DNA from: a virus
IMG/VR virus record: IMGVR_UViG_3300032116_000004
Location: 124,001 to 188,000 of that record
Length of the DNA: 64,000 nt
Strand: one strand, 5' to 3'
The position numbers and the translations under genes were made by a program. Each line of letters starts with the position of its first letter. Within the stretch, counting starts at the first letter, position 1. The notes below the pieces were generated by a model. The model was not told the DNA's origin, did no database searches, and saw nothing but the letters and a program-made list of their open reading frames with translations. Positions 5,721 through 64,000 of the stretch are shown piece after piece.

Positions 5721-6044
5721 ATGCAGTTAACGGAATCAGCACAGAGCAAGATACAAGACATATTCGCCGAGGAAAACAATGCCAATCTCAAACTGCGTGT
5801 GTTCGTGCAGGGCGGTGGTTGCTCGGGCATGCAGTATGGTTTCACATTTGATGAAGCACAAAACGAAGACGACTTTGATTTTGATTACAATGGTGTCAAA
5901 CTCTTGGTAGATTCCATGTCATGGGGCTACCTGCAAGGTGCTACAATAGACTACAAAGACGACATCATGGGCAGTAGTTTCAGCATAGAAAACCCCAACG
6001 CACAGACCACCTGCGGTTGCGGATCAAGTTTCTCACCTTACTAG
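5721..6044 (+). CDS. erpA: A-type iron-sulfur cluster carrier (ErpA/IscA-like)
   Basis: 107 residues with the three conserved cysteines of the A-type carrier family: [11 protein letters not shown] and the C-terminal TTCGCGSSF. This receives and hands on Fe-S clusters to apo-proteins. The [15 protein letters not shown] and [11 protein letters not shown] wording is closest to ErpA. It lies 3 nt after the superoxide dismutase gene, forming an oxidative-stress pair. Possible clients in this window are the two radical SAM enzymes and the CDGSH-like protein (inference). Confidence 0.92.
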
Positions 6045-6069
6045 CATAGATCCAAACTGCCTGTTCCGG

Positions 6070-6075
6070 TAAATA
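6070..6075 (+). promoter_or_regulatory. Late promoter motif before the large tail fibre
   Basis: GGTAAATATACC in the 49-base gap after erpA, followed by AAGGAACAGG and the ATG at 6094. Same TAAATA core as the other late genes in the window. Confidence 0.65.
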
Positions 6076-6093
6076 TACCAAAGGAACAGGTAG

Positions 6094-9000
6094 ATGGCCC
6101 AAGATATTATCAATATTGGCCCACAGCCCAATGACGGGCAGGGTGACAATTTACGCACAGCGTTTGACAAAACCAACGACAATTTCAATCAGATCTGGAC
6201 AGCCGGTCCTGTAGGATCCAATGTCCGTATCGCAGGCAACGTCATCTCCACGCTCCAGGTCAATCAAGATCTAGCCCTGAGCCCCAATGGTGTGGGCAAT
6301 GTGCGCCTCAACAACAACACCATTCCCGGCGCCAACAACACCTGGTTCCTGGGCTCTGCCACCATGCAGTGGCGCGGTTTGTATACGGCGTCGGTAGAAA
6401 CCGGCAACATAACCATCACTGGCACGCTCACAGTGCCCGGCGATGCTGTGATCCAGGGCAATCTCACTGTGGAAGGCGATACCATACAGATTGGCAACAT
6501 CGTCACTGACACCAAGACCATACAGTTGGCCAACACAGCGGCCAATGCCATCCAGGCCAATGGATCGGGCATCACTGTGGGTGCTTCGGACAACATAGCC
6601 ACGTTCCTTTACAATTCCACTTCCAACTCCTGGGTCACCAATCTACCGATCACCTACGCCAACGGTCAACCCATAGGCAAAACGCCTGGCGGCAGCAACA
6701 CCTACATACAGTTCAATGATGCCGGCAACTTTGGCGGCAACGCCAACTTTACCTACAATCGTGCCACAGGCAATTTTTATCTAGGTGGCGCCAATCTCCG
6801 AGCAGTCGCAGGCAACAGCCAACCCTACATCCTTCAGGTGCCCGGAATCGCGTTCCAAGGCGGATCAGCCATCATGGAATGGGACGCAGTAAATCAACAC
6901 GTGGATGTTTCCAACAGTTTTTCTATTTCTGGCACACTGCAATTATACGGCAACTATCCCGGCGATGGAGCGGTAATTACCACAAGCGGCGGGTCTGGGG
7001 TAGACATAACCATTGAACCCTCAGGCAATCTCTATCTCAACGCCGATGGCGGGGAAGTGATTGTTTCTGATCAAACCGCCAGTGTGGATACCAACACAGG
7101 AGCACTCAAAGTCTTGGGTGGCGTTGGAGTAAATGGCAACATCAATGTGGGCGGTAACATCACTGGTGCCAATATCACGGCCAACTATTTCGTTGGCAAT
7201 GGTAGCTTGCTCACCGGCGTGTCCAGTTATGCCAACGCCAATGTGGCAGCCTATGGCGAAGCAGGATGGGCTGGCAATATCATACCCTCGGCCAATGCCA
7301 CTTACAGCCTGGGCAACACCACCACAAGAAGATGGAAAGATATCAATCTTTCCGGTAACATCAACATCGGCGCTGCCAATATCAGCACAGTGCCTGGCAA
7401 TCTACAAACTGCTGTCCTGAGCGTGCCCGGTATCTCTTTCCTGGGTGGCAATGCCATCATGGAATGGGATCCTACCAACCAACACGTTGATATCAGCAAC
7501 AGTTTCAGCGTCAGTGGCACTTTGGCATTGTATGGTAACTATCCTGGCACCGGAGCACTGATCGCTACATCAGGCGGTTCTGGTGTAGACATCAAGATAG
7601 AACCCTCAGGCAACTTGTATCTCAACGCCGACGGTGGCGAAGTCATAGTATCGGATCAAACTGTCAGTGTGGATCCCAACACAGGAGCTCTCAAGGTCTT
7701 GGGTGGCGTTGGAGTAAATGGCAACATCAATGCGGGTGGCAACATCACCGGCAACTATTTCATTGGCAACGGCAGCCAACTCACAAACTTGCCTAGCACT
7801 GACTGGGCTAATATTGGTAATATCACTAATGCCAATGGACCACAAAATATAGCAATAGGAGAAAATGTTCACCAAACATTTACTTACACACCTGGATTTG
7901 GAACTGTGGCCATCGGATATAATGCAGGTCAAACCAACCAAGGTGGATTAACCGTGGCCGTTGGTTGGCAGGCTGGTCAATCCAATCAAAGTAATAATGC
8001 TATAGCAATTGGATATGCCGCAGGCCAAACTGGGCAAGAAGATGGTGCTGTGGCTATTGGTGCTTTTGCTGGTGCTCAACTCCAGGGTGCCGATGCCATA
8101 GCAATTGGTAAGTACGCTGGTTATAATGGAGTTGGTGTAGCACAACCTGATAACACCATCTTCCTAAATGCCACAGGCACAAATATGGGAGGCGTGCCCG
8201 CACAAACAAATAGTTTCTATGTAGCACCCATACGCAATGATGTGGCCAATGTGGCTGAGGTCATGTTCTACAACACTACCAGCAAGGAAATTACCTATGG
8301 CAATGTCATAAGTGTTGCTGGTAACATCACAGGCGGCAACGTCAACACTGGCAAGATCACACTCACCAACGGTGCAGTGATACGAGACACCGCAGGTGAT
8401 GCAGTGGCCATTGGACAACAAGCTGGTGAAACATCACAAGGCAACTATGCAGTGGCCATGGGCTTCCAAGCTGCCATAACCTCACAAGGCATTGGAGCAG
8501 TGGCCATTGGTCGAGAAGCCGGCAACGCACAAGGTGCCTACGCAGTGGCCATTGGTCAAGAAGCTGGGTTTGCCGGGCAGAGCAGTGGTGCAATAGCCAT
8601 AGGTTTAGAGGCTGGCAACAATAATCAAGGCGGCGATTCAGTGGCCATTGGTTACCGTGCCGGAGGGGAAGACCAAGACATCTATGCAGTGGCTATAGGT
8701 TATCAAGCTGGTAACAATACCCAAGGTGGTTCAGCAGTGGCCATTGGTGAAATGGCTGGTACCGACACACAAGGCGTCTCAGCAGTGGCCGTAGGTGACG
8801 GAGCTGGTCGAATCACACAAGGCGAATATGCGGTAGCCTTGGGCTACGGTGCTGGTGACACCAATCAAGGCAACAATTCAATCATCATCAATGCCACCGG
8901 TGGCATACTTAATCAAACCACTGCCAATACATTCACAGTGGCACCCATACGCAATGATGTGGCCAATGTGGCTGAAGTCGTGTTCTATAATACCACATCA

Positions 9001-14267: not shown

Positions 14268-14296
14268 TTGACACACCCGCTCCTCTATGTTACACT
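14268..14296 (+). promoter_or_regulatory. Sigma70-like early promoter for mazG operon
   Basis: TTGACA (14268-14273), 17-bp spacer, TACACT (14291-14296). It starts the gene run 14318-18899 (MazG, DnaE-like, GroES-like, clamp loader), consistent with early expression. The -10 lies in the loop of the hairpin described at 14280. Confidence 0.75.
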
Positions 14297-14312
14297 AGCA
14301 TAGAGGAGTTTT
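14280..14312 (+). promoter_or_regulatory. Hairpin enclosing the -10 and covering the mazG ribosome site
   Basis: Perfect 10-bp inverted repeat CTCCTCTATG / CATAGAGGAG (14280-14289 and 14299-14308) with a 9-base loop, followed by TTTTC. The right arm contains the AGAGGAG ribosome site of mazG. Transcripts reading through from the late fibre genes would fold this hairpin and either terminate or hide the ribosome site, while transcripts starting at the promoter at 14268 begin near its right arm and leave the site open. Confidence 0.65.
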
Positions 14313-14317
14313 CATTT

Positions 14318-14758
14318 ATGCCCATAGATCTCAATCGTTACAGCGAATTCGTCCAAAAGGTCACCAGCGGTGCCAGCAATGACCTTACCACGTTCATGAA
14401 TACCCTGGATCGACTCGATGCCAATTATGAACTGTTTGATGGTGAGATGCGCCACGGACCCGACATCAATGTGCCATTGTTGCTGACCGCGGCCTTGGGC
14501 ATGGCGGCCGAGACCGGTGAGTTCTGCGAGATCCCCAAAAAGATCTTCTTCCAGAACAAAGCACTCAACGAAGAAGCAGTTTTCCATATGAAACGCGAAT
14601 TGGGCGACATCATGTGGTATTGGATCAATGCCTGTAGGGCACTGGATCTCGATCCCAATGAAGTCATCGCTGAGAATGTGCGCAAACTCCAGAGCCGATA
14701 TCCTGGAGGCACATTCGACCCTTATCACAGCGAGCATCGCCTGCCGGGAGATCTGTGA
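14318..14758 (+). CDS. mazG: MazG-like nucleotide pyrophosphohydrolase
   Basis: 146 residues. MazG-fold signatures are AAETGEFCEIPKK (metal-binding Glu helix) and MKRELGDIMWYWINACRALDLD (E..D helix), then NVRKLQSRYPGG, the common tail of all-alpha NTP pyrophosphatases. Hydrolyses (d)NTPs to NMP and PPi; phage versions are thought to alter nucleotide or alarmone pools. First gene of an early operon, with AGAGGAG upstream inside a hairpin. Confidence 0.85.
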   Translation: MPIDLNRYSEFVQKVTSGASNDLTTFMNTLDRLDANYELFDGEMRHGPDINVPLLLTAALGMAAETGEFCEIPKKIFFQNKALNEEAVFHMKRELGDIMWYWINACRALDLDPNEVIAENVRKLQSRYPGGTFDPYHSEHRLPGDL

Positions 14759-14994: not shown

Positions 14995-15584
14995 TGAATG
15001 TCCGTATAGAATACCCTGCTGAGTTCCTGGCTGCCGCCCATTGGGAGGACTCAGTGCTGATGAATTGCTACACCGTGCGCTGTGAGATGATCACTGGCAC
15101 CAATGATGCGGTAGAGCAAAACGTGGCCCTGGAACGCTTGAAATGGATCCTGTTCCAGGCCATGCAGAATTCGGTGTTCATTGATGCCCGAGAAAAAGCC
15201 ACCATAAAACGCTTGGAAGCGGCAGGCCTGAGGACTGTGCCGTTGCCCGCACCTCCAGTTGACCAAGTGATAGGCATGATGTTATACTCTAAATTAGAAG
15301 CAGTGATGGAAGGTCGCATATCGGTCATGCAACTGTCTCTGAGTTCGGAATTGGGAGAAAATGTGATCTATTATCAAAACAACATGGAATCTCTAGGGCC
15401 ATTGGCCCAGCCCGGTTGGTGGCAGAATCCCGAACCTGTGTGCAGTGATGCTAGGCCCACTGCAGGCAAAGTGGTAGATATTGGTGCCAGCCAGACTTGG
15501 AAAAGCCTGGATCTGCACTGGACGCAAGATGACGACGATGTGAAATCCAACGTGGTAGCATTCCGCAAAGATGAAGACAAATAA
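14994..15584 (+). CDS. Conserved T4-like phage protein of unknown function
   Basis: 196 residues. Conserved-looking blocks are VEQNVALERLKWILFQAMQNSVFI, LPAPPVDQVIGMMLYSKLEAVMEGRI and SSELGENVIYYQNNMESLGPL, with an acidic C-terminus. No catalytic motif is recognised. Position between MazG and the DnaE-like protein, and overlap of its 3' end with the next gene, indicate an early replication or metabolism role. Confidence 0.7.
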   Translation: MNVRIEYPAEFLAAAHWEDSVLMNCYTVRCEMITGTNDAVEQNVALERLKWILFQAMQNSVFIDAREKATIKRLEAAGLRTVPLPAPPVDQVIGMMLYSKLEAVMEGRISVMQLSLSSELGENVIYYQNNMESLGPLAQPGWWQNPEPVCSDARPTAGKVVDIGASQTWKSLDLHWTQDDDDVKSNVVAFRKDEDK

Positions 15585-16092
15585 ATTTGGTGAAATCATA
15601 CTGGGTGAACCAGATCTCTGCGATCTGCTCATGCAAGGCCGTGATGTCGCTAACATGTCACATGTGACAGTGGACCCCAGTGTGAACATAGAGCAAGTGG
15701 CTGTCATGCTGGACGATCCCAAGAGTTTGTTGACTTGGGGATTCCCTGAAGCATCCGACATCGCTGTGCCGGAGTTTGATCGTGTCAGGCAAGGCCATTG
15801 GTTCATGCCCGACGAATATCAGCAACTGGACATAGCCCAGCATGTGCTGTCGTTGTGTGACACACCGGAACAACTGCAAAGGGCTGGTGCGGAACTGCTG
15901 ATGTTCCAGGAACGTGAACTATTTGATCTCTTGCGATATCTCAAATATCTCGTGGATGTCATGCGACAAAACAATGTTATTTGGGGAGTGGGTCGAGGAT
16001 CCAGCGTGGCCAGTTATGTGCTGTATCTACTGGGCGTGCATAGGATTGATTCGATGTTCTATGATTTAGATCCTGTAGAATTCCTCCGTTAA
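15571..16092 (+). CDS. DnaE-like (DNA polymerase III alpha) fragment protein
   Basis: 173 residues. The C-terminal block WGVGRGSSVASYVLYLLGVHRIDSM, then YDLDPVEFLR, matches the start of the DnaE/PolC nucleotidyltransferase palm (GPGRGSxAGSLVxYxLGIT.IDPL.Y.L.FERFL), but the protein ends there, before the catalytic Asp residues. It cannot be a polymerase by itself. It may be a decoy or partner of host Pol III, or an adaptor; the T4-type polymerase is separately encoded at 49000. Starts inside the 3' end of the preceding gene. Confidence 0.65.
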   Translation: MKTNKFGEIILGEPDLCDLLMQGRDVANMSHVTVDPSVNIEQVAVMLDDPKSLLTWGFPEASDIAVPEFDRVRQGHWFMPDEYQQLDIAQHVLSLCDTPEQLQRAGAELLMFQERELFDLLRYLKYLVDVMRQNNVIWGVGRGSSVASYVLYLLGVHRIDSMFYDLDPVEFLR

Positions 16093-30361: not shown

Positions 30362-31882
30362 ATGAAAAAATTAGTGATCATACCAGGTGGATTCCACCCT
30401 TATCATGCCGGGCACAAAGCCTTGTATGATGCCGCACGTGAAGCGTTTCCTTCGGCCGAAGTGTATGTGGCGGCCACAGACGATACCACTGGTCGTCCAT
30501 TTCCATTCAAGACCAAGAAGTTCCTGGCACAGCAAGCCGGCATCCCCAGCAACAGATTCATCCAGGTAAAATCACCTTTCAGCGCAGAAGAAATAACCCA
30601 ACATTTTGATCCCAACGAAACACAGTTGATTTTTGTTCGTTCAGACAAAGATCGCGATCAGAATCCTCAGCCAGGCCAGCCTGGACAGATAATCACACGT
30701 GGTCCTCGTAAAGGACTGAGCCCTTATTTACAGCCCTACCGTCGCAACGGTCTCGAACCCATGAAAGATCATGCTTACATGACTTATCTGCCCACTGTGC
30801 AGTTTGGTCCGGGCATGACGTCAGCCACTGAAATCCGTGCCAAATGGCCCGGCATGGATCCCAAACAAAAAGCCGCTCTGGCTGGTGTGCTGTATCCCTT
30901 GGCAGCCGACAATCAAGCAAAGATAGCCAAGATCGTGGAAATACTAGACACAGTGATGGGCGTCGGGAAAGACGTCAATGAGGAACAACTCAATGAACTA
31001 GATCTTTTCAATAAACGCACAGACTATATCAAAATGGGCAATGATCAGTTTATTGACATAGGATATCGTGTGACTGATAGATTTGGTCAGCCAGGCAACC
31101 CTCTGGTCACTAATTCCAAAATTCGCTGGGTGCCACCGCAAGAGGCTGTGACTCTTAAACTCAATGATCGTGTGACTGATGTTAGTCGCAAAATGGATTC
31201 GGACAATGTATTCACTCTTGATTCTAGTCTGATTCCACCAAACGTGAAATCTCAGATAGCACAATGGATCAAGACCCACCCTGCACCAACCACTGAAGCA
31301 GTGCTGGTAAATGATCCAGACGCTGGCCATCAGATCATACCTGACGGTGGCATGGGCACCTGGGACGAGGCCAGCATGGTCAACAATCTCGCCCGTAAGT
31401 TTGCCGACATGGTCAACATGGTCAAAGGCAAAAACTACTCTGGACTGCAATATGCACTTTACAAAGGTGGCGTGGTCAAGAGCTTGGTTGACGCCTTGGC
31501 AGAATACGAGCGTTTCATGCAGAAACAAGGTCGCAGACCCATAGCACGTGGCCGAGAAGTTGACATGAGCCAACTCAATCTCGCAGAAAAAATCCGGATG
31601 AGGATGCCTGTGGAAGAATCTCCCGACTATATCGAAGAAGGTGATGTGGTTCCGTTTCCGCCCTCGGCCACTCCGCCCGAGGGCTATGAGCAAGCCAAAC
31701 AATTGGCCTTCAAAATAGTAGACATAGCCAAAGACGAAAAGATACAGGATCCTGGTCCTATGTTGGCTCCACTGCGCAGAGATCTGCAAATGCTGGGCTG
31801 GCGCATGAGGATGGACAACAGCGGAATGCGCTTGATCCATACCCGTTCAAATTGGAACACCATCATTGACCCAATGAAATAA
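30362..31882 (+). CDS. Nucleotidyltransferase (NMNAT/cytidylyltransferase-like) with C-terminal extension
   Basis: 506 residues. The N-terminal ~200 form an HxGH nucleotidyltransferase: IPGGFHPYHAGHKALYDAA carries the HxGH motif and GMTSATEIRAKW the ISSTxIR-like motif. The middle holds IDIGYRVTDRFG and basic segments, and the C-terminal ~100 residues (PVEESPDYIEEGDVVPFPP, then YEQAKQLAFKIVDIAK) look like a virion module. NAD or CDP-type substrates are possible; the fusion suggests a virion-associated enzyme. Two clusters of L-x-E sites could be prohead protease sites (inference). Confidence 0.7.
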   Translation: MKKLVIIPGGFHPYHAGHKALYDAAREAFPSAEVYVAATDDTTGRPFPFKTKKFLAQQAGIPSNRFIQVKSPFSAEEITQHFDPNETQLIFVRSDKDRDQNPQPGQPGQIITRGPRKGLSPYLQPYRRNGLEPMKDHAYMTYLPTVQFGPGMTSATEIRAKWPGMDPKQKAALAGVLYPLAADNQAKIAKIVEILDTVMGVGKDVNEEQLNELDLFNKRTDYIKMGNDQFIDIGYRVTDRFGQPGNPLVTNSKIRWVPPQEAVTLKLNDRVTDVSRKMDSDNVFTLDSSLIPPNVKSQIAQWIKTHPAPTTEAVLVNDPDAGHQIIPDGGMGTWDEASMVNNLARKFADMVNMVKGKNYSGLQYALYKGGVVKSLVDALAEYERFMQKQGRRPIARGREVDMSQLNLAEKIRMRMPVEESPDYIEEGDVVPFPPSATPPEGYEQAKQLAFKIVDIAKDEKIQDPGPMLAPLRRDLQMLGWRMRMDNSGMRLIHTRSNWNTIIDPMK

Positions 31883-31894
31883 TCGTGCTACAAT
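31866..31894 (+). promoter_or_regulatory. Sigma70-like promoter before 31934
   Basis: TTGACC (31866-31871), 17-bp spacer, TACAAT (31889-31894), overlapping the 3' end of the nucleotidyltransferase gene. A late TAAATA motif at 31903 follows, so the gene at 31934 may be transcribed both early and late. Confidence 0.7.
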
Positions 31895-31902
31895 CGCTAG
31901 AC

Positions 31903-31908
31903 TAAATA
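31903..31908 (+). promoter_or_regulatory. Late promoter motif before 31934
   Basis: GACTAAATATACG, followed by GCACATTA and TTTAGAGGA before the ATG. The leader resembles that at 4558-4585. Confidence 0.6.
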
Positions 31909-31933
31909 TACGCACATTATTTTAGAGGACTCC

Positions 31934-32878
31934 ATGAGCGAACAACAGCAACCACAACCGGGCCAGACCCAGATCCAAGTCAATGTAGATTTCTTGCGCC
32001 AACAGCGTGTGCATCTCTGTATGCCCTGCTATGGTGGCCAGCTCACTGAGTCTACATTCATGAGTTATATCAAATGGTCAAACACATGCCGACAGTTGGG
32101 CTTGGACTGGACTATAGAAACCATGACCAATGAATCATTGATTTCACGTGCTAGAAATACTCTAGTTGCCAAGTTCTTGAACACTCCTGGCAGCACACAC
32201 TTGATGTTCGTGGATGCTGACATTGGTTGGGAACCGTGGCATTTGCTGGTGCTACTAAACGCAGACAAAGACGTCATTGGTGGCTTATACCCAATGAAGA
32301 CCATGCCCGTTAAGTGGGTGGTCAATGGCTTCGAAGGTGCCAAAGAAGAAGGACCCTTACAGGAAGTATCAAAAACAGGCACAGGCTTTATGTTGATCAA
32401 GCGACATGTGTTTGAAAAGCTCGCTCGCCATCCTGCTGTGAAAACTTTCGCCAATGATATCGGCCTGCCCAAAGAACTTGATCCACACATGAAGACCTAC
32501 TTTGACACAGCAGTGCGTGAAAATCGCTACTATTCTGAAGACTGGACGTTCTGTGAAAACTGGCGCGATTTCGGTGGCGAAGTATGGGTAGACAAGCGTG
32601 TGTTGCTCAAGCACACAGGAACCTATGTGTTTGACTATGCTGTGCAACCGGCCTTGTATCAGAGTCTCAAGGAAGAAATGGAACGCAACGGACAGCTACC
32701 AGTGGCACAACCCGTGAATACACCGGTATCTACCACACAGACCAGCGACTACAGCCAGCATGAAAAACTTGCTGTGCCAGCCGCCGACGCTGTGCCCACA
32801 CAACCTGTGCCTGTGCAGGCCAAAGTGGTGGCCAAAACCAAACCTCAAGCAAAAAAGGCCAAAGCACAATCTAAATAA
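31934..32878 (+). CDS. Glycosyltransferase-like protein (GT-A)
   Basis: 314 residues. HLCMPCYGGQLTESTFMSYI, ESLISRARNTLVAKFLN and HLMFVDADIGW form the start of a GT-A domain, with DAD as the metal-binding DxD motif. GGLYPMKTMPVKWVV, YSEDWTFCENWRDFGG and DYAVQPALYQSL follow; the C-terminal ~80 residues are Pro/Gln/Ala/Lys-rich and probably disordered. It may decorate virion proteins or DNA. Under both a sigma70-like and a late promoter. Confidence 0.75.
   Translation: MSEQQQPQPGQTQIQVNVDFLRQQRVHLCMPCYGGQLTESTFMSYIKWSNTCRQLGLDWTIETMTNESLISRARNTLVAKFLNTPGSTHLMFVDADIGWEPWHLLVLLNADKDVIGGLYPMKTMPVKWVVNGFEGAKEEGPLQEVSKTGTGFMLIKRHVFEKLARHPAVKTFANDIGLPKELDPHMKTYFDTAVRENRYYSEDWTFCENWRDFGGEVWVDKRVLLKHTGTYVFDYAVQPALYQSLKEEMERNGQLPVAQPVNTPVSTTQTSDYSQHEKLAVPAADAVPTQPVPVQAKVVAKTKPQAKKAKAQSK
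32872..32877 (+). promoter_or_regulatory. Late promoter motif before the 1699-residue protein
   Basis: TCTAAATAAATAGATG overlapping the glycosyltransferase stop, 12 bases before the ATG at 32890. Late-type core. Confidence 0.55.
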
Positions 32879-53344: not shown

Positions 53345-53982
53345 TCAGAAATGTAGTCCGTTACCAGCCTCCTGATATCTGGGGAGTGTTGTGTATAGAC
53401 ATCTGGCAAGATGCTCGCACCGACGAGTTTTACCAAACGTTCCTCCAGAGATTGTCTAAATATCCAGTGGGTGCTGTGGTTAACTGCACCTTGGATCTGG
53501 TGATTGACTATGCGGATGTGAGCGTGTATAATACACTTGATAGATACCACTGGCGATCAACAGATACCCAAGAACAAATACGCAACATGATGCTACTAGA
53601 TCTCGTCAAAGCCAGTGGGCAAAACAGGACCAGTCGCTTGATACATGATGCTTTGTTTGACCAAAACACTGTGCATATCAGCCAAAAGCAAACATTTAAC
53701 TATCATGTGGATCGGTTCTTTCCTGACATAAAGGATTGGATCGTGCTTGGCAGTGCCTGGGGCAAGTGTTTACACTACGGACCATTGGGTATAGATAAAT
53801 TGGTAGATCTACCAAATTGGAGATTCCATATCTTTCCTCAATGGAGTATACAGACAGAAACTCAGCAGGCACCGGATCTGCAACAGATACACGACGATTA
53901 TTTTGTATGGGCACCCATCGAAGATGATGGGTATAGACTGATAACAAGAGCACAAAATCACAAATGGATAGAGACGACTTAA
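53341..53982 (+). CDS. Hypothetical protein
   Basis: 213 residues starting with GTG overlapping the gp45 stop. It has an alpha-beta look: WGVLCIDIWQ, GAVVNCTLDLVIDYADVSVYNTL, DWIVLGSAWGKCLHYGPLGIDKL, suggestive of a Rossmann-like fold, but no family is recognised. Between clamp and DpdA. Confidence 0.5.
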   Translation: MIRNVVRYQPPDIWGVLCIDIWQDARTDEFYQTFLQRLSKYPVGAVVNCTLDLVIDYADVSVYNTLDRYHWRSTDTQEQIRNMMLLDLVKASGQNRTSRLIHDALFDQNTVHISQKQTFNYHVDRFFPDIKDWIVLGSAWGKCLHYGPLGIDKLVDLPNWRFHIFPQWSIQTETQQAPDLQQIHDDYFVWAPIEDDGYRLITRAQNHKWIETT

Positions 53983-55487
53983 CATCTAAACAGCAAGACT
54001 ATGCTGTGTTCCTCCCGGCCATCTCCAGTTTCTACGCTGGATACATCGGTCGCGAACGCCATGGTGTAGGACTGGATGCAGGTCGGTTGCCCTCGGCCAT
54101 TGGTGACATGGAAGCCATGAACTGGCTCAATCCTACCAAGGCTTTGTTTCCCTATCGTTGGAGCTTGTATTCCGCAGGACACGCCAATCTAGATTTGAAT
54201 AAGTTTGATGCCAAAGAGGACATGATCCGCAACAGAGATCCCAACACCATCATGCTGGCAGACTCAGGTGGATTCCAGATCGCCAAAGGTGTATGGCCCG
54301 GGCGCTGGGCAGATCCCACAGATAAAAAGTCAGAGCAACAACGAGAAAAAGTTCTTAAATGGCAGATGGGCATAGCCACATACGGAATGACCATGGACAT
54401 ACCCACATGGACATTCCGAGACCCCAAGGCTGCTGAAGCATCGGGTATTCACAGTTATGATGATGCTGTCACAGCCACACAATACAACAACGAATTCTGG
54501 ATCGCTAATCGCTACGGCGATACCCGGATCTTGAACGTGCTCCAAGGCGGTAACCATGCCGAGGCCGATCATTGGTATGATCTCATGAAACACTATTCTG
54601 ATCCCAAGCGTTATCCAGATCGGCATTTCAATGGATGGGGCATGGGTGGCCAGAACATGTGTGACGTGCATCTCATACTCCGCCGCTTGATACATCTCAT
54701 ACATGATGGACTGTTAGAAAAAGGTGTGCATGACTGGATGCACTTCTTGGGCACTTCAAAGTTGGAATATGCCTGTCTGCTCACAGACGTCCAACGTGCC
54801 ATAAGAAAATATCACAATGCCAATTTCACCATAAGTTTTGACTGTGCCAGCCCGTTCCTGGCCACTGCCAATGGACAGATATACACACAGCTCAGGACTG
54901 AAAACAGAGGCAAGTGGAGTTACATGATGAGCCCCACAGCAGACGATAAAAAATATGCCACGGACACTCGTGCATTCCGAGATGCTGTGCTACAGGACCG
55001 GATACATGACACATTTGAAGATAGCCCTATATCTGCCCGTATGAAGATCCAGGATGTGTGCATCTATAAACCCGGCGATTTGAACAAAATTGGCAAAGAA
55101 GGTCGCACATCGTGGGACTCTTTCTCTTACGCACTAATGATGGGTCACAATGTGTGGCATCATATCCGGGCGGTACAAGAAGCCAATCGGAGATATGATG
55201 CAGGAGAAGTTCCCGGAATGCTTGTGCGAGAAACCTTTGATCGTGTATACTTTAGAGACTTAGTAGATACCATTTTCCAACAACGTGATCGCAATCGTAG
55301 TTTGACTATCATAGATGAAAACTCTAAATTCTGGGACCAGATCATCGGCACACGAGGGTTCACGGGTAAACGCACTACCAATGCGCATACTCAATTCAAC
55401 GCTTTCTTTGATGTGGAAGATGATGACAGTTCCGAAGAAGAATTTGATCAATCCAAACTAGACGCCCTGGAGAACCTAAATGTATGA
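53964..55487 (+). CDS. dpdA: DpdA-like TGT-family transglycosylase
   Basis: 507 residues. Tgt-type barrel with the hallmark DSGGFQ (LADSGGFQIAKGVW), RILNVLQGGNH, FNGWGMGGQNMCDVH and FLGTSKLEYACLLTDVQRAI, which match phage DpdA rather than tRNA-guanine transglycosylase. DpdA swaps guanine in DNA for 7-deazaguanines such as preQ0 or preQ1 and protects phage DNA from restriction. FolE (62016) and a QueD-like protein (57485) in the same window support that. Acidic C-terminus (EDDDSSEEEFDQ). Confidence 0.8.
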   Translation: MDRDDLTSKQQDYAVFLPAISSFYAGYIGRERHGVGLDAGRLPSAIGDMEAMNWLNPTKALFPYRWSLYSAGHANLDLNKFDAKEDMIRNRDPNTIMLADSGGFQIAKGVWPGRWADPTDKKSEQQREKVLKWQMGIATYGMTMDIPTWTFRDPKAAEASGIHSYDDAVTATQYNNEFWIANRYGDTRILNVLQGGNHAEADHWYDLMKHYSDPKRYPDRHFNGWGMGGQNMCDVHLILRRLIHLIHDGLLEKGVHDWMHFLGTSKLEYACLLTDVQRAIRKYHNANFTISFDCASPFLATANGQIYTQLRTENRGKWSYMMSPTADDKKYATDTRAFRDAVLQDRIHDTFEDSPISARMKIQDVCIYKPGDLNKIGKEGRTSWDSFSYALMMGHNVWHHIRAVQEANRRYDAGEVPGMLVRETFDRVYFRDLVDTIFQQRDRNRSLTIIDENSKFWDQIIGTRGFTGKRTTNAHTQFNAFFDVEDDDSSEEEFDQSKLDALENLNV

Positions 55488-56721: not shown

Positions 56722-57264
56722 ATGGCTCGACTTTATAGAATCACTCCATTGCAAAAAAAATCAGTGGAATATTTCGTGGATGTTTATGAAAAACTTCCAG
56801 ACGGAAGGATCAGAGGGTTTGATGTAACCGAAACTTGGCGATGGGGGCAGGCTTTCAGAGAAGAAGATGAACCAGTATATGAAAGCGAAGGCACTGTATT
56901 TTGTCGTCCTGAAGTTGGGTGGGGTTGCGAACTGGATGATTTGGTAGCCGTGCATGTGAATTATGGTTGCTGGGACATGGATGGCAATGTCTATGATGAT
57001 GGATTCACAGAAGAAGAAAAAGCCCAAATAGAAGCACTGTTGCGATGGGAAACCGAAGATGAAGATGGTCGTTGCGGAACCGGGTGGATCTATGACGGTG
57101 ATCATAATTGGGAAATCGAAGACGAGCACGTGGCCATATTGGAACCATACAAGGTTGACCTAGTGGATGAAGATGCTTATAATGAAGTAATAGAAGAGAA
57201 TGTCGCACTTGAAAAATTAACCCCATCAAATGGTTGGCCATTTCCAACTGAGGAATCTAAATAA
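56722..57264 (+). CDS. Conserved acidic phage protein of unknown function
   Basis: 180 residues: MARLYRITPLQKKSVEYFVDVYEKLP, then ETWRWGQAF and a Trp/Gly/Asp-rich centre (VGWGCELDDLVAVHVNYGCWDMDGNVYDDGF). Very acidic overall. No recognised domain. Follows the coiled-coil gene after 2 nt. Confidence 0.55.
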   Translation: MARLYRITPLQKKSVEYFVDVYEKLPDGRIRGFDVTETWRWGQAFREEDEPVYESEGTVFCRPEVGWGCELDDLVAVHVNYGCWDMDGNVYDDGFTEEEKAQIEALLRWETEDEDGRCGTGWIYDGDHNWEIEDEHVAILEPYKVDLVDEDAYNEVIEENVALEKLTPSNGWPFPTEESK

Positions 57265-61408: not shown

Positions 61409-61986
61409 GTTTTGACCCAATTTTTCAATTTGAAAAACAATTATCAGAATACACCGGTGCACCTTATGCTGTGATGACTGATTGTTGCACACATGCTATA
61501 GAGTTATGTTTACGGCATGAACTACCTAACTGGACATCATTCACTGCTTTTACCTATCTTTCTGTGCCCATGCTGATGCATAAACTTGGGATCGAATATA
61601 AATTGGTGCAGGAAGATTGGATTGGCGAATATCGTTTTCACAATACCCGTATCTGGGATTCGGCACGCCGGCTAGAACGCGGTATGTATCGACCTGGCAT
61701 GATGCAATGTTTGAGCTTTGGCCGAGGTAAACCGTTGGAGATAGGGCGAGGCGGTGCCATATTGCTTGACGATGCTCGGGCGTATCGTGTATTATTAGAA
61801 CAGAGATATGATGGTAGAGACTTGACCATCATCCCCTGGCAAGACCAAAAAACTTTTAGGGTGGGGTATCATTATAAACCAACCATAGAAGAGGCAGAAA
61901 AAGGTATCGAATTGCTACCAAAAGTAGATGAGAAACCTAAATATGTCTCATACCCGGATCTAAGACAGATCCAGATCATTGACTAG
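61405..61986 (+). CDS. Shortened DegT/DnrJ-type PLP aminotransferase-like
   Basis: 193 residues, about half the usual ~370. It keeps VMTDCCTHAIELCL, FTAFTYLSVPMLMHKLGIEYKLV and SFGRGKPLEIGRGGAILLDD, where the Lys corresponds to the PLP-binding position (SFxxxKxLxxGEGGAI). The C-terminal domain is nearly missing, so it may be an adaptor or a reduced enzyme. Starts by overlap with galE. Confidence 0.6.
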   Translation: MSFDPIFQFEKQLSEYTGAPYAVMTDCCTHAIELCLRHELPNWTSFTAFTYLSVPMLMHKLGIEYKLVQEDWIGEYRFHNTRIWDSARRLERGMYRPGMMQCLSFGRGKPLEIGRGGAILLDDARAYRVLLEQRYDGRDLTIIPWQDQKTFRVGYHYKPTIEEAEKGIELLPKVDEKPKYVSYPDLRQIQIID

Positions 61987-62015: not shown

Positions 62016-62852
62016 ATGACAGAAAAAAAACAAGAATTATTTGATGCGATAAAAAACACAAAGTTGGTAAGCGAAGCACCTTTCCATCCTGGCTATGAAG
62101 ATGCTGCCATGAATCTTACCAACACAGGACTGGACGCCATGGTCAATGATCGAGGTTATCAAACGGCCTATCTCGGCGATGCTATCCGATTCCAAATGCG
62201 GCGTGAAGGCAAAAGATTCTGGGCTGGAGACAATGTATCGGAATATGTGAATCCTGCCACCAAAGAAATCCTGATCAATGAGGCCACCGAAGCGTTTGAG
62301 TTAGTGCTAGATCGTTTGCTGATCGATAGAGAAACGGATCCCAACTCCAAGGGCACCGCACGTCGTTTGGCCAAGATGTATTTCAATGAGATCATGGCCG
62401 GAAGATATGAATCTGCACCCGACTGCACTGCTTTCCCCAACGACTCGGCAGACCGATACGAAGGCATGCTGGTGGTGCGCAGTGAGATCCGGAGCATGTG
62501 TAGCCATCACCATCAACCAGTGGTTGGAGTGGCCTATATTGGAATCTTGGCCGCACACAAACTCATCGGTCTCAGCAAATACACTCGCATCGCGCAATGG
62601 TGTAGCCGTCGCGGAACTCTACAAGAAGAATTGTGCAACGACATCGCCCGAGAGATCATGAAAGTGACCGAAAGTTCTGATGTAGGCGTATATGTGCAAG
62701 CCACGCATGGGTGTTGTGAAAATCGCGGCATCATGGCCCATTCTAGCCTTACCCAGACAACCGTTCTAAACGGTGCATTCCGGACGGACCCGGCTGTGAA
62801 AAAAGAGTTCATCGATAATATCAAACTGCAACAGGACTTTGCGCCTAGGTAA
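62016..62852 (+). CDS. folE: GTP cyclohydrolase I
   Basis: 278 residues. Zinc ligands at Cys162, His165 (MCSHHHQP) and Cys233 (HGCCENRGI), with the same spacing (+3, +71) as E. coli Cys110, His113 and Cys181, and SRRGTLQEELCNDIAREI as the family helix. It converts GTP to dihydroneopterin triphosphate, the first step to folate and to queuosine-type 7-deazaguanines. The N-terminal ~70 residues are longer than in bacterial FolE. Likely supplies DpdA (53964) with a precursor. Confidence 0.92.
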   Translation: MTEKKQELFDAIKNTKLVSEAPFHPGYEDAAMNLTNTGLDAMVNDRGYQTAYLGDAIRFQMRREGKRFWAGDNVSEYVNPATKEILINEATEAFELVLDRLLIDRETDPNSKGTARRLAKMYFNEIMAGRYESAPDCTAFPNDSADRYEGMLVVRSEIRSMCSHHHQPVVGVAYIGILAAHKLIGLSKYTRIAQWCSRRGTLQEELCNDIAREIMKVTESSDVGVYVQATHGCCENRGIMAHSSLTQTTVLNGAFRTDPAVKKEFIDNIKLQQDFAPR

Positions 62853-62870
62853 GTGAGCACTTACCTATTT
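62846..62870 (+). terminator. Hairpin at folE stop
   Basis: TAGGTAAGTG-AG-CACTTACCTA is a perfect 10-bp inverted repeat (62846-62867) spanning the folE stop codon, followed by TTT. Probably a weak terminator separating folE from the promoter at 62869. Confidence 0.6.
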
Positions 62871-62910
62871 GACCAATAATCCTAGATCAACTATAATATT
62901 GATATTATAG
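62869..62910 (+). promoter_or_regulatory. Sigma70-like promoter with palindromic operator
   Basis: TTGACC (62869-62874), 17-bp spacer, TATAAT (62892-62897). The -10 and the expected start site lie in a near-perfect palindrome CTATAATATTGATATTATAG (62891-62910), a good operator candidate. The -35 region TTGACCAATAATCC is identical to that at 1709. Confidence 0.85.
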
Positions 62911-62928
62911 ACAAATCTGGAACGACCA

Positions 62929-64000
62929 ATGGATTTCAAACGCAGTATCATTGCTGTATCAATCTCTGGCATAATGTCTACCTTGGCCGGCTGTGGGGGT
63001 GGTGGTGGTGGTGGCACTAGTTCAACGCTCGGTGGTTTTGTCCGATCAGAAGTTCCTTTCCATACTCCTGTGCGCATATCGTCGGCTATAGATCCTTTGG
63101 TCAAAGTCGATGGAGCGGCACCTGTATTTGATATCTTTGAAGCAAATGTCACTGGTAGTGGCAACGATATCATATTGGCAGGTAGACAAACACAATATGC
63201 CACACCCGAAACCTGGAGTAACAGCCGGATCAGTTTGTTCGCATGGCAAAACGGAACTTTAGTCGACCGCACTGCACAGTGGTTTCCGGGTGGTATCAAC
63301 GAAATACTAGGCACAGAACCCAGCGTGAAGTTTGCTGATCTATTCAACACAGGTCGCCAAGACATGTTGGTTGCACCCAGCACGGACATGCAACACTATG
63401 GCCCTGGTTATGTGTTCGCCAACCAAGGCACACATTTCAATCGCATATCAATTCCTCTCAACAATGTATGGGCCCACGACAGCGCCATCGCAGACATGGA
63501 CGGAGACGGTTTTAAAGATTTGCTGTTTGTCGATTATGGACCAAACACCACCTTGGCAATCAACAATCGAGTCAATAACTTTACCGCATATACCGATAGC
63601 AGAGGCACGGCCGGTGATCTGCGGTGGGGTGGATCCAGCATTGTTGCTGACAGTTTTCTAGGCAATGGACAGAAACAGATCATAGTAACTGACAATGCTT
63701 GTAATACTGCCAACGCCGCATGCAGTAATGCTCGCACCACCAAGATGTATAGCTACACCATCGTTGGAGGGCAACTGAATTATCAATACATAGCCGATCT
63801 TCCTGCACCATTGTTGGATCACAATGTGAGAGTGGTATCGCATGATTTCAACGAAGATGGACGACCCGATGCCATTGTTTTTAGCCGTCTTGGTTTCCAT
63901 ACCAAACAAAGTGCCATCCAATTCCTGAAAAACAACGGCGCCGCTGTGTTCCAAGATGTGACCACAGATACACTGGTCGGTTATGATACCAATACCTATT
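62929..64000 (+). CDS. Putative surface lipoprotein with FG-GAP/VCBS repeats, partial
   Basis: Open to the window end (357 residues seen). Signal peptide with lipobox LAGC (near residues 19-22) followed by a Gly run (GGGGGGG), so it is an outer-membrane or surface lipoprotein. The body has FG-GAP/VCBS-type repeats with calcium loops such as DMDGDGFKDLLFVD and DFNEDGRPDAIV, predicting a beta-propeller. A strong sigma70-like promoter precedes it, which would let it act early, for example in surface change or superinfection exclusion (inference). No clear ribosome site. Confidence 0.75.
   Translation, partial: MDFKRSIIAVSISGIMSTLAGCGGGGGGGTSSTLGGFVRSEVPFHTPVRISSAIDPLVKVDGAAPVFDIFEANVTGSGNDIILAGRQTQYATPETWSNSRISLFAWQNGTLVDRTAQWFPGGINEILGTEPSVKFADLFNTGRQDMLVAPSTDMQHYGPGYVFANQGTHFNRISIPLNNVWAHDSAIADMDGDGFKDLLFVDYGPNTTLAINNRVNNFTAYTDSRGTAGDLRWGGSSIVADSFLGNGQKQIIVTDNACNTANAACSNARTTKMYSYTIVGGQLNYQYIADLPAPLLDHNVRVVSHDFNEDGRPDAIVFSRLGFHTKQSAIQFLKNNGAAVFQDVTTDTLVGYDTNTY

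Follow-up and report, generated by a model that had tools for sequence, protein, structure and literature searches.

A sigma70-type promoter nested in a candidate read-through hairpin before a lipoprotein gene of a T4-related jumbo phage

Background

In IS10-type elements the transposase is protected from incoming transcripts, which fold into a hairpin hiding the start signal. The same masking of a start signal on incoming transcripts is proposed here for a phage lipoprotein gene which, unlike the IS10 case, has a strong consensus promoter and belongs to no mobile element. Hairpins that sequester the ribosome-binding site (RBS) and hold a nested promoter have been described for T4 gene e (lysozyme), soc, I-TevI and segB, and for Aeh1 mobE (PMC2988022, PMC3014915). 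As in T4 gene e and I-TevI, read-through RNA of the present locus would cover the RBS, while the promoter is situated within the 5' arm and its own transcript would lack the hairpin. In the gene e group, however, the nested promoter is late and it is early and middle read-through that is silenced.

The topology is known from T4 gene e and I-TevI, and what is new is the apparently reversed promoter polarity. In the window, by which the whole 64,000-nucleotide stretch analysed is meant, read-through RNA can form a stem over the Shine-Dalgarno and start region (a strong one in roughly half the family, a modest one in the window itself), and the 5' arm holds the -10 hexamer at 62892-62897, from which we infer the start site. 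The nested promoter is not a late one: TTGACC-17-TATAAT, of sigma70 type, is nested, and CTAAATA stands before folE, the upstream gene, which is apparently late. The predicted repression of read-through translation would concern an envelope lipoprotein, a product unlike those of the gene e group.

The window covers positions 124001-188000 of a 315,778-bp record. The record encodes a gp23-type capsid protein (E 4e-100), with 66% identity to its counterparts in the Pseudomonas phages PA5oct and Paride, as well as a DNA polymerase, a clamp loader and a gp55 homologue (gp55-like match, E 4.9e-6), and on these genes the phage is classed as a T4-related jumbo phage. A weak hint of a betaproteobacterial host comes from the sole long cellular homologues of the lipoprotein found, which are in betaproteobacterial MAGs.

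The promoter and its palindrome

The following features, all on the + strand, precede the lipoprotein gene:

62846..62867, +, TAGGTAAGTG/CACTTACCTA, a second inverted repeat that spans the stop codon of folE and lies directly 5' of the -35
62869..62874, +, -35 hexamer TTGACC, followed by a 17-nt spacer
62882..62887, +, outer 5' arm CTAGAT, in the -35/-10 spacer, pairing with 62915-62920 in read-through RNA
62891..62910, +, perfect 20-bp palindrome, the inner hairpin stem
62892..62897, +, -10 hexamer TATAAT, within the 5' arm
62915..62920, +, ATCTGG, the outer 3' arm, which shares bases with the Shine-Dalgarno-like TCTGGA (GGA at 62919-62921), 7 nt before the ATG

The promoter (TTGACC-17-TATAAT, 62869-62897, + strand) matches the sigma70-type consensus at 11 of 12 positions. 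The first-pass annotation had placed its -10 and start region in a 20-base palindrome, and this was borne out: 62891-62910 reads CTATAATAT-TG-ATATTATAG, with 9-bp arms free of mismatch, spans the -10 together with the point where transcription should start, and has its centre just downstream of the -10. A palindrome of this kind arose in none of 100 shuffles, and no second copy was found in the 315,778-bp record with up to 3 mismatches allowed. The same annotation had called this the strongest promoter in the window, a rank that could not be upheld, as a site at 57155, within a coding region, scores equally (11/12) and sites of the same class number 26 across the record. These TTGAC-N17-19-TATAAT sites are all forward (reversed control, 0), those within the window include 1709, 48892 and 53504, and many of the 26 show an extended form near TTGACCARAAAT-spacer-TATAATATRGGTATAGTAA, then AAGGAGC. 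The lipoprotein promoter is one member of this phage-wide class, and its early use is plausible, since it resembles T4-type early promoters and differs from the CTAAATA class.

The inverted repeat at 62846-62867 is a possible weak terminator or binding site. Its arms before the -35 are AGGTAAGTG/CACTTACCT, a similar AGTTAGTGTNNACTAACCT stands at the same place in a number of relatives, and this repeat recurs with similar sequence among them, whereas the hairpin varies.

We consider it rather likely that the palindrome forms the inner part of an RNA hairpin which silences read-through transcripts. A transcript entering from folE or from farther upstream would carry both arms, and the hairpin would occlude the Shine-Dalgarno and start region, so that no lipoprotein would be made. 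RNA polymerase starting at the nested promoter would begin in the right half of the palindrome, about 7 nt past the -10; as transcription would then begin inside that half, the gene's own message would hold the 3' arm only, and its leader would be open and short, at about 21-28 nt.

Pairing across relatives

Relatives were found at 35 viral loci at first and then at 66, and the comparison of upstream regions took in about 50 viral relatives. In many of them the -35/-10 spacer and the -10 are complementary to the Shine-Dalgarno and start region of the same gene, and the distance from the -10 to the ATG is nearly constant (27-35 nt). Tested against dinucleotide shuffles of the 3' part, the pairing of spacer/-10 with the start region reached p<0.05 in 21 and p<0.01 in 15 of the 47 upstream regions that were non-redundant, with z down to -7.6; these regions are kin, so that the p-values are not independent, and the folding scores permit G-U. 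In an earlier set, 29 relatives gave a median z of -1.7 against -0.1 for 29 other promoters (Mann-Whitney p 0.003), these other promoters from the same loci being mostly free of such pairing. Moreover, the same architecture is built from very different sequences, for example in L005, L007, L076 and L091. Hairpin arms of individual relatives are:

L005, AATCCAGA/TCTGGATT
L007, AATTCCAGA/TCTGGAATT
L076, AATGCCT/AGGCATT
L057, ATAGTTAC/GTAACTAT
L063, ATAGTCAC/GTGACTAT
L096, AAAATCCGTTTC/GAAACGGATTTT, the 3' arm lying in the first codons

In L029 and L042, as in L096, the spacer pairs with the first codons. Pairs were counted in alignments of two subclades: 92.5% of cells were paired in A8, as against 17-61% when slid, with a covariation score matched by 1 of 500 shuffles, and 90.3% in A7, as against 32-48% when slid. 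Both contain compensatory changes. The MAFFT alignment A6, which holds the most diverse hairpins, was out of register and was left out of the pair counts. Among exceptions within strong stems, G-U (22) outnumbered A-C (7), which the score treats alike, and this favours selection on the sense-strand RNA.

These observations bear on the claim of the first-pass annotation that the palindrome is a protein-binding control switch, a claim which gains no support here, since relatives alter the sequence and keep RNA pairing with the gene's own RBS. An operator, at which a dimeric phage or host repressor would block the promoter over the -10, would suit a perfect 20-bp palindrome, centred just past the -10 and single in the record. 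Nevertheless, the half-sites vary among relatives and the pairing does not, the pairing reaches into the RBS or the codons, the exceptions lean towards G-U, and a single-copy site would serve the lipoprotein gene alone, all of which makes this reading quite improbable and suggests that repressor binding is not the main function of the palindrome. Protein binding may occur as well, as DNA palindrome and RNA hairpin share one sequence. That the -10 palindrome is a by-product of an A+T-rich promoter, its kept pairing reflecting only shared ancestry, is barely credible: pairing is weak or absent in several subclades and the fold in the window is not extreme, yet separate subclades have long stems that are unrelated in sequence (z -4 to -7.6), changes in one arm are compensated in the other and control promoters lie near zero. 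An RNA hairpin in read-through transcripts is thus preferred, because relatives exchange the sequence and yet preserve the pairing with the RBS.

In nine members, opening the start region would cost about 5-20 kcal/mol in the read-through RNA as against 1-6 in the RNA from the own promoter, a wide gap in L005, L007 and L029 but a narrow one in L031 and L033. The window copy gave 8.3 (read-through) and 3.9 kcal/mol (own promoter); its hairpin has an energy of -12.6 kcal/mol, a fold z of about -1.6 and a duplex p of about 0.03, and the Shine-Dalgarno sequence is weak. No significant spacer-to-start pairing was found in the subclades L051, L053, L054/L055/L060 and L074, and the hairpin is not universal in the family. 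The sequence evidence for it is strong across the family and modest for the window's own copy, and since the window signal is modest the silencing claim rests on the family.

A further explanation, which appears unlikely, is that the inverted repeat acts mainly as an intrinsic terminator of the upstream operon, its overlap with the promoter being incidental. Many relatives (L004-L007, L037, L076, L078 and L089-L091) have a run of 4-7 T between the stem and the ATG, and in relatives with such a run the hairpin may terminate transcription too. The window copy, however, has no T-run (TCTGGAACGACC), and in L029, L042 and L096 the run lies within the stem, inside codons. Termination would lead to the same outcome, the silencing of read-through, and differs from RBS sequestration in mechanism only.

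The upstream gene folE

The gene from which read-through would come and the motif before it are:

61937..61943, +, CTAAATA, 79 nt upstream of the ATG of folE, a putative late promoter of T4 type
62016..62852, +, folE, GTP cyclohydrolase I (Pfam PF01227, 9.1e-39; phrog_2197)

In 41 relatives folE lies 76-1440 nt upstream of the lipoprotein gene, and in 33 of these 41 CTAAATA occurs within 200 nt before the folE start. Across the record the motif is found 28 times forward and 8 times in reverse (reversed controls, 9 and 13), and 7 of its 12 copies in the window stand less than 100 nt before an ORF start. CTAAATA has been reported as the late-promoter motif of the T4-like phage Aeh1 (PMC1524935), and by analogy it would be used late in the present phage. 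The classical late promoter TATAAATA was also considered and showed no enrichment (8 forward, 8 in the control). Owing to the enrichment of CTAAATA, its position before folE and its late role in Aeh1, late transcripts probably run from folE into the lipoprotein gene. With folE apparently transcribed from this promoter and both arms present only in read-through RNA, late read-through would be silenced and expression confined to the sigma70-type promoter; the lipoprotein would be made only while that promoter is active, early in infection, and would be off late despite read-through.

As a separate observation, the phage has candidate genes which suggest a 7-deazaguanine pathway (Tgt-like, folE, QueD-like and QueE-like):

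window 53964-55487 and 62016-62852, and L002:5789-6304 and 15083-15982, 7-deazaguanine candidates; folE by Pfam, the Tgt-like, QueD-like and QueE-like calls made by eye

The lipoprotein

62929..64000, +, codons for the first 357 of the 794 aa of the FG-GAP beta-propeller/beta-barrel lipoprotein, whose gene runs on to record position 189313
62992..62994, +, Cys22, the cysteine of the lipobox, unchanged in all 26 relatives aligned

Extension of the sequence, as had been advised, gave the full gene of 794 aa, whose end lies 1,313 bases past the window. The description as a lipoprotein with FG-GAP repeats was confirmed: the ORF starts with a signal peptide, the lipobox LAGC and then poly-Gly, the cysteine and poly-Gly being present in 51 of 55 relatives, and FG-GAP_3 (Pfam) matches at E 1.5e-15 in four stretches, with 58 bits against a cut-off of 26.9. 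From its signal peptide and lipobox cysteine the protein is predicted to be a bacterial-type lipoprotein. Foldseek gave propeller-like matches, including CRTAC1 and integrins, for a model of moderate confidence (pLDDT 60). The AF2 model of the C-terminal domain is confident (pLDDT 87) and all-beta, with about 12-13 strands; its Foldseek matches are weak, the best being to porins at E 0.008, and they also include EspP and FapF. The domain resembles outer-membrane barrels, and the surface destination proposed earlier is in line with this model, which makes the outer membrane the probable location.

Lipoprotein autotransporters such as NalP and SphB1 combine a lipobox N-terminus with an N-terminal passenger and a C-terminal beta-barrel, the barrel of autotransporters (type V secretion) being one of 12 strands in the outer membrane. 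The present protein resembles them in its lipobox, its passenger-like N-terminal domain and its predicted barrel-like C-terminal domain, but the passenger is an FG-GAP propeller and not a subtilase, no Pfam autotransporter domain was found, and the Foldseek likeness to barrels is weak. Surface lipoproteins for superinfection exclusion are described for phages TP-J34 (Ltp; PMC3952083) and T5 (PMC9586334). The present protein, a phage-encoded lipoprotein predicted in the host envelope, would be like them in kind; it is much larger, with propeller and putative barrel.

The protein as a whole had no match in PHROGs, no sequence relative in the PDB and none by tblastn against 50,697 phage records, and no relevant paper came up when the literature was searched for FG-GAP surface proteins of phages. 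As to a family name, XAC2610 (NCBIfam) stayed below the threshold, and a fusolisin-type autotransporter match (NCBIfam) occurred in one member and was absent from L062. A first scan of genome contigs found no homologue; a second yielded 5 betaproteobacterial homologues and, from a MAG of the Bacteriovoracaceae, a single short match to FG-GAP. Four of the 5 were examined in full, and all lacked the phage-type promoter. Two betaproteobacterial homologues (L107:4794-7241 and L106:4800-7247; 38% identity) lie beside ychF and lack both the lipobox/poly-Gly start and a phage-type promoter; one homologue has chromosomal neighbours, ychF for example, and such genes are rare, with 2 of the 151 genomes from the L107 genome's family carrying one.

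That the lipoprotein is instead a virion or late protein, with a promoter active throughout infection, is very improbable. The gene does sit in a long + strand cluster, but the host envelope is the likelier place for a protein that has a lipobox signal peptide and a beta-barrel-like domain, and the gene's own leader has no CTAAATA.

Further promoter-hairpin layouts

A second copy of the device precedes a MazG-like gene:

14268..14308, +, TTGACA-17-TACACT, with a perfect 10-bp stem CTCCTCTATG/CATAGAGGAG over the Shine-Dalgarno sequence of the MazG-like gene (ATG at 14318)

Close relatives retain this device, and in L128 the same layout is built from a different sequence. Another copy is possible at 1709-1767, where TTGACC-17-TATAAT shows spacer-to-Shine-Dalgarno pairing (TCCAAAA/TTTTGGA). 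Elsewhere, at G000:C1:103841 (L016:1501), a TTGACC promoter has a spacer, GTGATTTCGGT, that pairs with ACCGAATCAC (z -3.5), the partner falling among the early codons of a small ORF whose product looks like a membrane protein. Hairpins with late-type motifs were also seen. At 31866-31934, CTAAATA lies in the loop of AAATAATCGTGC/GCACATTATTT, the hairpin standing directly before and over the AGAGGA Shine-Dalgarno region of the ORF 31934-32878; at 6040-6094, GTAAATA lies in the loop of CTGCCTGTTCC.../GGAACAGGTAG, over the start of a 1112-aa ORF (from 6094) that has no family match. The T4 gene e-like orientation, with a late-type motif within the hairpin, may occur at 31866-31934 and before 6094.

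Biological meaning

We give about even chances to a broader reading, namely that a phage-wide device works as T4 gene e in reverse, early-type promoters within hairpins silencing selected early genes (lipoprotein, MazG) on late read-through, across a large group of uncultured T4-related jumbo phages in which the sequence turns over but the arms still pair. Such a device would provide a rule, readable from the sequence, for which genes of large T4-related phages stay silent on read-through transcripts, and it suggests that late manufacture of the lipoprotein is harmful or useless to the phage. Moreover, because it has no match in PHROGs or the phage records searched and few betaproteobacterial homologues, the propeller-plus-barrel lipoprotein is a new candidate for a protein with which phages alter the surface of their host and which might, as the first-pass annotation proposed, change adsorption or exclude other phages, roles which at present are a guess.
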